Shown here: positions 28,541 to 33,738 of the stretch, piece by piece
Layout: every line of letters starts with the position of its first letter
Position numbering within the stretch: the stretch's first letter is position 1
The notes under the pieces: model-generated
What the model was told of the DNA's origin: nothing
The model's input: only the letters and a program-made list of their open reading frames with translations
The model's database searches: none
Assembly (NCBI GenBank): GCA_021738505.1
Contig: JAIPBW010000023.1
Location: 1 to 43,297, forward strand
Direction: 5' to 3'
Source: Bacteroidales bacterium
Lineage (GTDB): Bacteria > Bacteroidota > Bacteroidia > Bacteroidales > PWNQ01
DNA: 43,297 bases
Position numbers and translations under genes: made by a program

Positions 28541-30433
28541 ATGCGATGGAATTATTGGGGTTCTTTTCGTTTTGAGAAAATTAAAAAACACTCAATTAAG
28601 CTGAGCTTTCTGTTTGTCTTTTTGCTCCTGAATACTTTTGGTTTAGCCCAGTTAAAACCCGGAAATGTAGCCGTAGTAGGTGTAAATATCGAAGATGACA
28701 GCATGAATAACGACCAAATAAGTATGGTTACTTTTGATACCATAACAACGGGTATGACCATAGAGATTACGGATAATGGCTGGCAGCAAACATATCCGGA
28801 TCGGTGGGGAAATCAAGAAGGTGTAATTAGTTTAACCCGTACCGGACCTGATATCAATCCCGGATTTGTGTTTACGATAAAAGGAACAGGTAGTCAACCA
28901 TCTGATTTTTCGATGTCCCCGGATGGTAATAATTGGTCTGTAGATATGGTTGTTGGAACTTTCGATTTAACATTAAATGATCAGTTCTGGGTGTTACAGG
29001 GAGGACATTGGAGTAATAATAGTGATTCTACAGATAAGGCCACCTATGATGGAAATATTATAACAGGCTGGTCAGCACCGGAGTGGAATAACAACTATGC
29101 AAACCCCTTAATAAATTCAGATGTCTACCCTAATATGAATTGTCTTGTATTTTCTTTTGATGTTAATGTTAAACACCAAAAATTAAAATACAAAAACGGT
29201 TCTTTCCAAAATGCATCTAAAAGAGAATGGATAAACAGGATTACTGATTATAACAACTGGAAAGATTTTAATTCGACAAGTTCGTATGAAAATTCGAATC
29301 CTGACTATATCCAGGGGTATATGCTTGATGTTTCCACTGATTCCATAACCGATGGCATTTGGTACGGCGATAAAAATCATAATTGGTTTGACTGCGCCAA
29401 CTGGAGTGATCTCACTGTGCCTGGGGAGGAATCTGATGTATATATGAACAGCCATGCTCAAAGATATCTGGAAATCGACAGTGATGCCGAATATTCCGGT
29501 TTATTTAATGATACGGCCAAATGTAGAAACTTAACTGTTAATGAAGATAGTATATTATTGTTCAACAATTCAGATCAACTGGACATTTCCGGTAATCTTC
29601 TGATAAACGGAGGAAAGCTGATTGCCAATAGTGGTCATATTTCTGTCCGTGGAAATTGGCAAAGTGTAGATACCCTGGGTTTTTTCCGTGGTGATGGAGT
29701 TGTAAAATTTTATGGCAACAGTCAACAGACCATAGCTAATGATCAGGCAAGAGAATATTTTAATCAGCTTGAAGTTGAAAAGCCCCAGGGAACCAAATTA
29801 GAACTGAGAGCCAATGTAAATACCCGAAATCTCAATCTGATAAGTGGACATGTATTGCTTGATACATTTAATTTGATTGTGGATGACTCTCTGGAAGGCG
29901 GAGATCAGCAAAATTACATCATAACCAAAAATGATCATGCCTCCGGAGGATATTTGTTTCTAGAGCCTAATGATACGGAAACATTGTTCCCGGTAGGAAC
30001 AGAAAATAATTACACTCCGGTTTCTATTTCAAATTCCGGAACAGAAGTATTTAAAGTAAGAACTTTTGACGGGATCTTCGAAAATGGATACAGTGGGAGT
30101 GCTCTTACAGGAGATATTGTAAACAGAACATGGGCAATTGAACTGGTTAATGCTGACTCTGCTGTAGCAAACATCAAATTACAATGGAATAAATCCCTTG
30201 AGGAAAATGAATTTTCAATAGACCGTGATAAAGGGGTTATGATTTTTAATTCCGGTAAGGGCATGGGAAATGACTGGGCGGATTGGTCATTGTTGCTTTC
30301 GAAAAGCCAACCACCCGCCGGAACGAATCCTTTTACGATACAATCGCTTGATGTCAATCATTTTGGACTTTTTGGAGTTCATAACCGTTGCCAGCATATT
30401 GAAATAAACACATCGAAAATATATCATTATTGA
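28541..30433 (+). CDS. Secreted beta-rich surface protein without recognised sorting domain
   Basis: 630 residues from the ATG at 28541, chosen because the hydrophobic signal (KLSFLFVFLLLNTFGLAQ) then starts near residue 18; the frame is open back to 28409. The first ~260 mature residues open GNVAVVGVNIEDDSMNNDQI with ITDNGWQQ, a pattern of lamin-tail-like or related secreted domains. The middle has IWYGDKNHNWFDCANWSDLTVP and stacked strands typical of adhesin layers. The last part shares the LFPVG-type module with the gene at 25132. It stops after HIEINTSKIYHY with no type A or type B domain. The gene at 30453 starts 19 bases later, so they form an operon. Confidence 0.75.
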   Translation: MRWNYWGSFRFEKIKKHSIKLSFLFVFLLLNTFGLAQLKPGNVAVVGVNIEDDSMNNDQISMVTFDTITTGMTIEITDNGWQQTYPDRWGNQEGVISLTRTGPDINPGFVFTIKGTGSQPSDFSMSPDGNNWSVDMVVGTFDLTLNDQFWVLQGGHWSNNSDSTDKATYDGNIITGWSAPEWNNNYANPLINSDVYPNMNCLVFSFDVNVKHQKLKYKNGSFQNASKREWINRITDYNNWKDFNSTSSYENSNPDYIQGYMLDVSTDSITDGIWYGDKNHNWFDCANWSDLTVPGEESDVYMNSHAQRYLEIDSDAEYSGLFNDTAKCRNLTVNEDSILLFNNSDQLDISGNLLINGGKLIANSGHISVRGNWQSVDTLGFFRGDGVVKFYGNSQQTIANDQAREYFNQLEVEKPQGTKLELRANVNTRNLNLISGHVLLDTFNLIVDDSLEGGDQQNYIITKNDHASGGYLFLEPNDTETLFPVGTENNYTPVSISNSGTEVFKVRTFDGIFENGYSGSALTGDIVNRTWAIELVNADSAVANIKLQWNKSLEENEFSIDRDKGVMIFNSGKGMGNDWADWSLLLSKSQPPAGTNPFTIQSLDVNHFGLFGVHNRCQHIEINTSKIYHY

Positions 30434-30454
30434 AACGCAAAACTATATCATTAT
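30420..30454. repeat. 11-base direct repeat TATATCATTAT spanning a gene junction
   Basis: Exact copies at 30420-30430 and 30444-30454 are 24 bases apart. The first encodes the last residues (IYHY) and precedes the stop of the upstream gene. The second contains the start codon of the next gene. A short tandem duplication at the junction is a possible origin. Confidence 0.6.
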
Positions 30455-31541
30455 GAAAAAGGTAAAATTTTTACTCGTGATTTTAATTGTTACGACAGCA
30501 TCTGCTTTAACGGCTCAAACTACAAATCCGGACACGGTGTGCGTTAATGCTTCCGGAGTAGAATATTTTGTAAATGGAACACCCGGAAGTTCCTACTCCT
30601 GGGATATAAGTGGAGGAGGTACTATTGATAGTACACAAGCAGATACGATGATTTTTGTTACCTGGAATAGCACTCCGGGGACTGACACGATTTATGTAAC
30701 GGAGATAGATAGTTTGGGTTGTGTAGGAGATACCTCAGAATTGCCTGTTACACGTGAGCCTCTGCCTATTGCAGATATTGCCGATGATTCAGTAACGATC
30801 GGAAATTGTTCGCCGGGCATACAAATTGCTCCGGATACTAAGGATGCGGACATGACTTATTCCTGGTCACCGGCTACAGGATTAAGTGATGCTTCAATAG
30901 CGGACCCGATTGCAAATCCGACAGATACAACAACATACGTGCTTACTGTTTCCTCACCGTATGGTTGTTCCGTAACGGATACAATTACTGTTAATGTGGC
31001 ACCTGCACCTGTCGCTGATGCCGGAACGAATGATACCATTTGTTACGGGCAAACAGCTCAACTTGATGGTAGTAATAGTTCAGGTGTTAATTTGAGCTAT
31101 TCCTGGACATCAGTATCAGGAGGAAGTTTCAGTTCAAATTCAGTCAGCCCTTCAGTTAGTCCTGTTGATACAACGACTTATCAGTTGGTTGTAACCGACG
31201 AATATGGGTGTAGCGATACCAGCACAGTTACTGTGAATGTTGTTCCTGATGTAGTAGCAGATGCCGGTGTTAAAGACTCTATTTGCGAGGGAGAAACTCA
31301 TTTTCTAACAGGAACTGCTGATAATTATAGTTCCGTGGTCTGGACAACAAACGGTGACGGTTCATTTAACGGGAACACTACTCTAAACCCTGAATATATA
31401 CCAGGACCTAATGATATTTCAAGTGGTTCGGTAACTATTGAAATTGAAGCAAAAGGAATTGCTCCATGTGGGCAAACTACAGATACTGTTGAACTGATCA
31501 TACATCCAAAACCAAATACACCAGCTATACAGAAAAATTAA
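30453..31541 (+). CDS. Secreted Ig/PKD-like repeat protein without recognised sorting domain
   Basis: 362 residues. The signal peptide ends ASALTAQ (about 22). The first domain starts DTVCVNASGVEYFVNGTPGSSYSWDISGGG and ends DSLGCVGD. It is clearly related to the first domain of the gene after it. Then come two Ig/PKD-like units, each closing with YGCSxT (SPYGCSVTDT, DEYGCSDTST). The final unit has ADAGVKDSICEGE and SSVVWTTNGDGSFNGN, common in gliding-motility-type proteins. It ends LIIHPKPNTPAIQKN at the stop, without the CHU_C domain expected in such proteins. It is either a complete protein with a different tail, or was cut at the element that follows directly. Confidence 0.8.
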   Translation: MKKVKFLLVILIVTTASALTAQTTNPDTVCVNASGVEYFVNGTPGSSYSWDISGGGTIDSTQADTMIFVTWNSTPGTDTIYVTEIDSLGCVGDTSELPVTREPLPIADIADDSVTIGNCSPGIQIAPDTKDADMTYSWSPATGLSDASIADPIANPTDTTTYVLTVSSPYGCSVTDTITVNVAPAPVADAGTNDTICYGQTAQLDGSNSSGVNLSYSWTSVSGGSFSSNSVSPSVSPVDTTTYQLVVTDEYGCSDTSTVTVNVVPDVVADAGVKDSICEGETHFLTGTADNYSSVVWTTNGDGSFNGNTTLNPEYIPGPNDISSGSVTIEIEAKGIAPCGQTTDTVELIIHPKPNTPAIQKN

Positions 31542-31731
31542 ATAGTATCTGATTCAGAATGTCCGAGATCTGCGTTTTGCTCGTATTTAAAACATTCATC
31601 CCGATGTTACAATCGGGACTCCTTGGTTTTAGATGCTTCGAAAGCCCCGATAAATGCGGGGTAAACCTTGAACTCGAACATTCTGAACCAGACTCTGACG
31701 TTATTGCCAAACTCTCATTTATTATAGTATC
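31542..31731. mobile_element. MITE-like inverted-repeat insertion between two surface-protein genes
   Basis: Terminal inverted repeats at 31550-31567 and 31673-31690 match at 16 of 18 positions (TG[AG]TTCAGAATGT[CT]CGAG). Between them are two hairpins: TCCCGAT/ATCGGGA near 31600-31619, and CCCCG/CGGGG near 31646-31662. The 8-base word ATAGTATC occurs directly before the left end (31542-31549) and again at 31724-31731, like a target duplication. The right copy sits 33 bases beyond the right terminal repeat, so the element boundary is uncertain. No transposase is encoded. Confidence 0.55.
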
Positions 31732-32742
31732 AAAAAACGAATAATACATATCATTTTAATCCTGATCTCTGTTTTTCAGGGCCTTGGGGCACAGGTTGTA
31801 GTCGATACTGTATGCCCCAATGACCCTTTTGGTACTTATTTTGTCGATGGAGATAGTAATTCTGTCTATCAATGGAATGTCTCAGGAGGGATCATTTATA
31901 ATCAGAAAGGCAAGGATACAGTTGAAGTGCACTGGAAGGATAATTCTTCCACACTACAATTAAGTGTTGTGGAAATTAATGAGCATGGATGTGTTGGAGA
32001 TACTTTGACTGTAGATATTGTGATGTCTGACTATGTTGATGCCAAAATATCCGGACGGGATTCCGTATGTAAAAATGAAAATGTAAGTCTGACTAGTGTG
32101 AAAGCGAATAGATACTATTGGAGCAACGGCGATACAGCAAGATCCACGAATATTAAAGTAACCCGGGATACTTCCGTTTCACTTGTGATCGACGATGGTT
32201 GCCGCCTCGATACTGCCTATAAGAATATAACTGCTTTACCTTTACCTGACGCTGATTTTTCATTATCACCTTCCAATATCAGACCGGGGCAATCCGTGAT
32301 GTTCAATAGTAATAGTTCCGATTCATATATTCATACATGGATTCTCGGGAAGGATACACTACCAATTAATGAAGAATATGGAGACTATATGTTCTATAAT
32401 AGAGGAAGTTATCAGCTGACGCTGATGGTGGAAAATCAATATCGTTGTGTGGATACAGCTATAGAAGTTGTAACTGTAGAAAACATGTTGGTTAATACGA
32501 TTACTCCGGATGGTGATGACATTAATGATACCTGGGAGTTGGATATATTAGAAGAATTTCCCGATTGTGAGGTATGGATTTTTGATCGTTCCCATGGGCA
32601 GATATTTTATTCCAAAGGTTATAACGAACCCTGGGATGGGACTTATAAAGACTCTCCTGTGCCTGATGGTTCCTATTTTTATGTTATTGATTATGGCGAT
32701 GGATCGCAACCTGAAAAAGGCGTAATAACTGTAATACGATAA
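31729..32742 (+). CDS. Ig-like surface protein with T9SS type B (gliding motility-type) sorting domain; start codon ATC instead of ATG
   Basis: 337 residues if read from the ATC at 31729. The frame then gives KKRIIHIILILISVFQGLGAQ, a clear signal peptide. It aligns with MKKVKFLLVILIV of the preceding gene, with ATC exactly where ATG is expected. No ATG, GTG or TTG precedes the signal in this frame (it closes at 31696-31698); the first GTG is at 31927, past the signal. The mature protein has a related first domain (DTVCPNDPFGTYFVDG ... HGCVGD) and a PKD-like unit. It ends in a CHU_C domain (ITPDGDDINDTWEL ... VWIFDRSHG ... WDGTYKDSPVPDGSYFYVIDYG). It may be a pseudogene or use a non-standard start. 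A PorP/SprF gene follows after three bases. Confidence 0.75.
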   Translation: MKKRIIHIILILISVFQGLGAQVVVDTVCPNDPFGTYFVDGDSNSVYQWNVSGGIIYNQKGKDTVEVHWKDNSSTLQLSVVEINEHGCVGDTLTVDIVMSDYVDAKISGRDSVCKNENVSLTSVKANRYYWSNGDTARSTNIKVTRDTSVSLVIDDGCRLDTAYKNITALPLPDADFSLSPSNIRPGQSVMFNSNSSDSYIHTWILGKDTLPINEEYGDYMFYNRGSYQLTLMVENQYRCVDTAIEVVTVENMLVNTITPDGDDINDTWELDILEEFPDCEVWIFDRSHGQIFYSKGYNEPWDGTYKDSPVPDGSYFYVIDYGDGSQPEKGVITVIR

Positions 32743-32745
32743 ACT

Positions 32746-33738
32746 ATGAGTAAGAAACTAATCTATACCTTTATATTTTTTCTTTCGGGGATTATTATGG
32801 CCTTTGGTCAACAGGATTCCCGGTTAAACTTCAGACCTTTTGCTGACATGTATGAAAATCCGGCTGCTCTTGTAAACAAAAGACAATGGCAGGGTATCGT
32901 AAATTACAGGAATAGTATGCCCGGCTTTCAGGACGGGGCACAAACTTTTTATTTTGGTATTGGTGGGCCTGTTGGAATGTATAAATCAAATTCAAATGTT
33001 ACATACAGACATGCGTATACCCGCAAAAAGATAGCCCGCCATGCTTTAGGGGCTTATGTGGTGCAGGATAATTTTGGTCATATTGGTTATAATTCGTATA
33101 TCGTAAATTATGCTCAACGGTTTCCGATTTCCGGGAGTTATTCATTTTCACTGGGTGTTGGTTTTGGGTTGTATGATTATCAGGTGTATAGTGATAAACT
33201 GAGAGTAAAATACAGCAATGATCCGACGTATTATCAATATTTAAATGAACACGATCAATTTTTGTTGGGTGATTTAAATCTGGGAATCGAATTCTCAGGC
33301 CCAAACTTTCGTCTGGGTTTTGCAACGAAACATTTGGCCAATAATAAAGTTAAATTTAGGGATACTCCGGATTATGCTTCACTAAATGAAACCTACACGG
33401 GATTTGCCAAAGCGACGTTTGATGTAAAAGATAATATTGTTATGGTACCCGGAATTAATGGGGTTTATACACAGGGGATACCTTATGATTTGAAAATAAG
33501 TGCTCCGTTTGTGTTCCACGAAATGTTTATGGCAGGGATTGGTTATTCTTTGAATAAAAGTGTTTCTGTAGAAACAGGACTTTATAAAGGCGGGCTTTTT
33601 ATAGGCTATTCTTTTACGATCAATACATCAGAACTGCATTCCTTTTCCGATCTTGCTCACCAGGTTGCTGTAGGTTATGTGCTTCCCTTTACACCAGATG
33701 CCAGAGATAAGTTTTCTATTGGGGAAGCTTTGTTTTAG
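32746..33738 (+). CDS. PorP/SprF family T9SS-associated outer membrane protein
   Basis: 330 residues. The signal peptide ends IIMAFGQ (about 21), followed by QQDSRLNFRPFADMYENPAALVNKRQWQGIV, the family's typical opening with 'NPA'. The remainder is a predicted beta barrel of alternating strands (FSLGVGFGLYDYQVY, GLFIGYSFTIN). In known cases (SprF with SprB) such proteins are needed to secrete or attach a partner with a type B sorting domain. It starts three bases after exactly such a gene, so the pairing is expected. A 6-pair hairpin at 33750-33764 follows the stop but lacks a long T tract. Confidence 0.9.
   Translation: MSKKLIYTFIFFLSGIIMAFGQQDSRLNFRPFADMYENPAALVNKRQWQGIVNYRNSMPGFQDGAQTFYFGIGGPVGMYKSNSNVTYRHAYTRKKIARHALGAYVVQDNFGHIGYNSYIVNYAQRFPISGSYSFSLGVGFGLYDYQVYSDKLRVKYSNDPTYYQYLNEHDQFLLGDLNLGIEFSGPNFRLGFATKHLANNKVKFRDTPDYASLNETYTGFAKATFDVKDNIVMVPGINGVYTQGIPYDLKISAPFVFHEMFMAGIGYSLNKSVSVETGLYKGGLFIGYSFTINTSELHSFSDLAHQVAVGYVLPFTPDARDKFSIGEALF

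Follow-up and report, generated by a model that had tools for sequence, protein, structure and literature searches.

Bacteroidota secreted proteins that carry a signal peptide and no T9SS domain are usually deemed periplasmic or are left unexplained. The window considered here, by which we mean the whole stretch of 43,297 nucleotides analysed (contig JAIPBW010000023.1 of a Bacteroidales bacterium), encodes two such proteins, A and B, directly ahead of a type B protein, C, and a PorP/SprF-family protein (Table 1). A and B end in short tails that look alike, and the question is what such a tail is for. Judging from comparisons of protein and genome sequences, we contend that it may be a C-terminal docking peptide that joins A, B and C into a surface complex, a reading to which we assign a probability of roughly one half.

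Table 1. Features of the tail locus, in coordinates of the window
Feature	Position	Strand	Description
Protein A	28541..30433	+	~630 aa; signal peptide; body without Pfam/NCBIfam match; no T9SS sorting domain; tail at end
Tail of A, NTSKIYHY	30407..30433	+	including stop; from the sequence and tail comparison
Protein B	30453..31541	+	362 aa; signal peptide, N-terminal PKD_6-like domain, further PKD/Ig-like domains, tail
PKD_6-like N-terminal domain of B	30516..30776	+	proposed tail receptor; residues ~22-108, directly after the signal peptide
Tail of B, NTPAIQKN	31515..31541	+	including stop; divergent form; orthologue in G001 ends PVTSPIFNY
Dispersed repeat element	31542..31715	+	MITE-like, imperfect terminal inverted repeats; ~174 bp, between B and C
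Protein C	31729..32742	+	signal peptide, N-terminal PKD_6-like domain, type B (CHU_C) sorting domain; no tail
PorP/SprF-family outer-membrane protein	32746..33738	+	presumed carrier/anchor of C

The locus and its same-genus orthologues

An earlier note, made from the letters of the window, had described the two C-terminal sequences, the want of type A and type B sorting domains in A and B, and the type B and PorP/SprF genes that adjoin them, and all three descriptions are borne out. The tails read as given in Table 1, and the signal peptides at the start of both proteins were read by eye. Searches against Pfam and NCBIfam returned PKD-like domains only for B and no match for A; at the C-terminus of either protein there was no match to the type A domain (TIGR04183/PF18962) up to E = 0.1, the type B domain (TIGR04131/PF13585) was not found there, and neither protein contained a fimbrillin-family domain in these two collections. 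The next gene encodes the type B domain of C (CHU_C, 74.4 bits; TIGR04131, 57.6 bits), and the PorP/SprF gene adjoins it. Within 31699-31765 there is no ATG, GTG or TTG before the signal peptide of C, an ATC standing at 31729 where the orthologue in G001, a Bacteroidales MAG of the same genus, has GTG; the repeat element lies just upstream of this start region. The C of the window may be impaired, may use a rare start or may contain a sequencing error.

The likeness of only two tails is weak evidence alone, and it is the orthologues that show the similarity to be real. The genome G001 (contig JAIPAE010000028.1) has the same four genes in the same order; its B shares 64% identity with that of the window over residues 1-358 and has HPKPVTSPIFNY at its end, and its A ends KPITPPIFHF. 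The A of a second same-genus genome (G002) ends KPDTSPIYYYAQ. The tails of these orthologues (PITPPIFHF, DTSPIYYYAQ and PVTSPIFNY) end at the same position as in the window, and none of the orthologues of A and B continues beyond the tail into a sorting domain, which agrees with the note's suggestion of a shared tail rather than truncation. The G001 orthologue of A is present as two ORFs (L143:3960-5908), through a frameshift or an assembly error. A 24-nt direct repeat (75%) at 30416-30463 extends over the codons for the A tail and the region where B starts; as an origin of the A tail it was set aside, given that the G001 and G002 orthologues carry equivalent tails.

The tail motif across gene clusters

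Comparison of 58 tails from 26 clusters gives the consensus P-x-T-[ST]-x-I-x-H-[D/N/Y/F]-COOH, with Ile at position -4 in 54, His at -2 in 51 and Thr at -7 in 36 of them, and with Asp, Asn, Tyr or Phe as the usual last residue. The core I-x-H-[DNYFEQ] stands at the exact C-terminus in 50/58, mostly preceded by P-x-T-[ST]-x, and the B tail of the window (IQKN) is among the divergent ones. The pattern NTxxIx[HK][YN] that had been proposed for A and B thus captured a tail that is indeed shared, but as an exact pattern it was too narrow, fitting 4/58 tails. The carriers, found in Bacteroidales and Flavobacteriales MAGs, are otherwise unrelated secreted proteins without a T9SS domain. The same arrangement and tail type recur in further families of the order and in two Flavobacteriales MAGs; in UBA6267 a type B gene and SprF come after genes with the tails KPITSNIFHF and PKPSTSPIFHF, and in NIOZ-UU86 a type B gene comes after genes with STVATQPINHY and GPTTGPIQHF.

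Within 65 tailed proteins, 23 of 35,631 internal positions match the tail pattern, so that fewer than 1/1000 C-termini should fit it by chance. Tails are also more alike within a cluster than between clusters: the mean BLOSUM62 score over the last five residues was 16.0 within clusters, against a mean of 9.4 and a maximum of 15.0 when tails were shuffled between clusters, and 0/5000 shuffles reached the observed value. Because related clusters are present in the sample, this test is conservative; part of the within-cluster similarity could stem from a common ancestry of the last domains of A and B. One cluster, L282 (G890), has an A and a B that share a different tail, ITPTN/LTPTN in place of IxH[DN], possibly a co-evolved variant. 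In four further genomes (L111, L114, L115 and L116) a lone B-like gene of ~210-250 aa with a tail like KTSNIIHN is found without A or C, and it comes after a gene whose product ends in CxxC(G).

Coupling of the tail to an N-terminal PKD_6-like domain

The first domain of B served as the basis of a profile (A1), which matched in 44/393 genomes of the order, and 40 regions were taken from these. For counting, we defined a strict tail as [ILV]xH[NYFDEHQK], a regular expression written after the first tails had been seen. Among genes directly upstream of a gene with the N-terminal domain, 26/39 carried the strict tail and four more an extended form, TGPI[FY]HIP plus ~7 residues. The corresponding figures were 6/158 for other ORFs with a signal peptide, all six in the same clusters, and 1/162 for ORFs without one (7/320 over all other ORFs; Fisher p = 1e-23 for upstream genes versus other ORFs). 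Because the expression postdates sight of the first tails, an independent set of 20 new regions was obtained by a class-wide search with a second profile, and here the strict tail occurred in 12/19 upstream genes versus 7/134 others (p = 8e-9). Six of the seven other upstream genes in this set end in variants, namely KPVTSQIYH (three genes in three clusters, one residue short), TPTN (two) and IIQHRN (one). Type B proteins that begin with a PKD_6-like domain had the tail in 0/13 cases of the independent set and likewise in none of the first set, and throughout the loci surveyed no protein has both the tail and a type A/B domain. It was mainly by way of the receptor domain that the loci came to light, and the rule that there is no tail without a receptor is covered by this sample in part.

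The earlier note had also expected such tails to cluster upstream of CHU_C plus PorP/SprF genes in general, and this expectation failed. In 60 regions from the same order that surround PorP/SprF genes with high scores, no tail was found upstream of SprF at any of the 60 ordinary loci, many of which have type B genes upstream; no N-terminal PKD_6-like copy was found in the genes upstream, and 1/344 ORFs fits the tail pattern, by chance. A search for the sprB operon by means of SprB repeats gave too many matches to be useful. The 60 loci rule out the tail as a general CHU_C/SprF (or T9SS) signal. What survives of the note's idea of a docking or sorting signal tied to the neighbouring genes is that the tail does behave in this way and is linked to a type B neighbour; the real partner that it tracks is the PKD_6-like domain with which the product of the next gene begins, and which B and C both have. 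There is good support for the tail itself, for its coupling to this domain and for the lack of it in ordinary type B operons.

The same counts bear on the possibility that the tail is a minimal sorting signal for the T9SS or for a dedicated carrier, forming a further class beside types A, B and C and acting independently of a partner. Such a signal would explain why the tail and type A/B domains exclude each other and why signal peptides and surface-type domains accompany the tail. It would also suit the distant relatives of the A body (~35% identity over ~300-380 residues), which lie within large proteins outside these clusters, with no N-terminal-domain neighbour; their C-termini read like type A sorting domains (e.g., GIYLLKIYSKNSVYSKKIIKR), by eye and not by profile, as if tail and sorting domain replaced one another. 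However, a partner-independent signal fits poorly with the 60 ordinary SprF genes and with the coupling to a single N-terminal domain, nor is the tail spread over secreted proteins generally. The DNA pattern P-4x-I-x-H-[NY]-stop showed no excess over a permuted control (119 genomes each), and 0 of 30 matches inspected on either side, pattern or permuted, end an ORF; at this specificity chance dominates such a search. We therefore consider a sorting signal unlikely.

A proposed model of docking and its possible structural basis

In the docking model, proteins that have a signal peptide and no T9SS sorting domain would bind, through their tails, a PKD_6-like receptor at the extreme N-terminus of a partner encoded together with them. 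A, which has a tail only, would bind B, which has receptor and tail, and B in turn would bind C, which combines the receptor with a type B domain; self-binding of B is also conceivable. C would leave through the T9SS and be retained by its SprF protein, and A and B would be displayed on the surface, or exported, by way of C. Physical binding, strand donation, the order of the chain and export with C are what we infer from the conservation of the tail in syntenic orthologues and in other families and orders, from the way it is tied to the N-terminal domain, from the want of tails on type B proteins and in ordinary SprF operons, and from the likeness of tails within one cluster.

A simple chain is not the whole story, because some clusters have several tails for one receptor and in others B stands last. 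In L140, L142 and L124, three to four tailed genes accompany only one detected N-terminal receptor domain each, which is why a strict one-to-one tail/receptor chain was rejected as a universal rule; after some tailed B proteins (e.g., L105-L108, L132) the next downstream gene is not a receptor gene. The tailed genes of L140, L142 and L124 have unrelated N-terminal domains and precede the PKD_6-like-first protein, most of their tails being I[KR]H[NQ]. The PKD_6-like-first protein is giant where the contig extends far enough (>2,400 aa in L140 and L142).

As to how docking might work, the tail is proposed to donate the first beta-strand, which N-terminal copies of the domain would lack and internal copies would have. 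A linker P..[IV]xG precedes 88/117 internal domain copies versus 1/42 N-terminal copies, which mostly start no more than ~10 residues after the signal peptide; in giant tandem proteins the typical linker before an internal copy is NPxPxPxISGxxxVC. Since the tail resembles this inter-domain linker, the missing strand could be supplied in trans by the tail. AlphaFold2 was run on read-through fusions of in-frame pairs with the stop codon replaced by Gly (B tail with C receptor, A tail with B receptor); the mixed alignment A2, in which MAFFT had placed the domain of C on that of B, was left out. With 10-13 sequences and the signal peptide as linker, the receptor alone folded (pLDDT ~85-95) and the tail was disordered (largely <50). 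We regard this outcome as a failed test and not as a disproof of docking, and it leaves the strand-donation step unsupported.

The resemblance to linkers, together with the position of the tail, mostly after the last strand of an Ig/PKD-like domain, would also suit an edge strand that caps this last domain and is kept for folding, with no partner involved. We judge this improbable, in that the tail follows differing last domains, at the exact C-terminus, varies together with its neighbours within a cluster and is not carried by comparable proteins that lie outside such clusters. More doubtful still is the idea that an enzyme of the sortase or exopeptidase kind recognises the tail for processing or attachment: Ile-x-His is short, strongly conserved and near the C-terminus, but no candidate for such an enzyme was noticed in the genes nearby, and the motif stands so close to the very end that little is left to cleave off.

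The repeat element beside the B stop codon

The dispersed element between B and C occurs in ~40 or more copies in the 3.06 Mb MAG, at ~68-89% identity, and several assembly contigs start or finish in its copies, so the element probably breaks the assembly; it is not part of the tail system. Truncation of A and B, with B eroded by this element, which begins at 31542 immediately past the B stop, can be given almost no credence and is ruled out by element-free orthologues that end at the same place and by aligned repeat copies that begin only after the stop codon, for which reason the B tail is native.

Significance and comparison with known systems

If tails do dock, it can tentatively be speculated that Bacteroidota build surface fibres in which the C-terminal peptide of each subunit completes the incomplete first domain of the next, the last subunit being carried and anchored by T9SS/SprF; this wider proposal, doubtful as it is, would imply modular export and display of proteins that themselves lack an outer-membrane secretion signal. 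Independently of fibres, a searchable tail names one class of signal-peptide proteins without T9SS domains in Bacteroidota, with gene order predicting the partner, and it suggests how extra subunits of type B operons, possibly sprC/sprD, may reach the surface and stay there. The tail is not described in the literature searched, which comprised open-licence papers only and is thus weak evidence of absence.

Type B proteins are known to bind SprF/PorP, as in SprB-SprF and PG1035-PorP (PMC9143113, PMC12618676), so that the proposed assembly would be anchored. The present locus is like these systems in that the type B domain is found in C and PorP/SprF is encoded next to it, and unlike them in that a CTD is missing from A and B; neither the tail nor the N-terminal PKD_6-like domain occurs in ordinary SprF operons. 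The sprC-sprD-sprB-sprF operon of F. johnsoniae (Rhodes 2011, cited in PMC12635249) offers another parallel, as extra proteins there share an operon with a type B adhesin and SprF, and SprC travels along the gliding track (PMC12635249). The type C T9SS CTD of the ChiA type (cl41395; PMC10202324) is likewise a sorting signal outside types A and B. It comprises ~100 residues, in contrast to ~9-12 for the tail; the Pfam and NCBIfam searches gave no sorting-domain match in A or B.

The closest analogy in logic is with the Bacteroidales type V (FimA/Mfa1) fimbriae, in which a terminal strand has been proposed to fill a neighbour that lost its N-terminal strand (PMC4789730, PMC5954841), and which also have tip, shaft and anchor subunits. 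However, A and B have no fimbrillin family match, the anchor here would be a T9SS type B protein, and the proposed receptor would be strandless from the outset, with no gingipain cleavage; strand donation is, in the present case, a proposal only. The solved structure nearest to B by sequence is GhpA, the grappling-hook protein of Aureispira (PDB 9flp, E = 2e-42), and 9flp is also the best fold match of the N-terminal domain of B (E = 4e-3). GhpA is one giant protein with tandem domains, whereas at the loci described here the domains are spread over several proteins.
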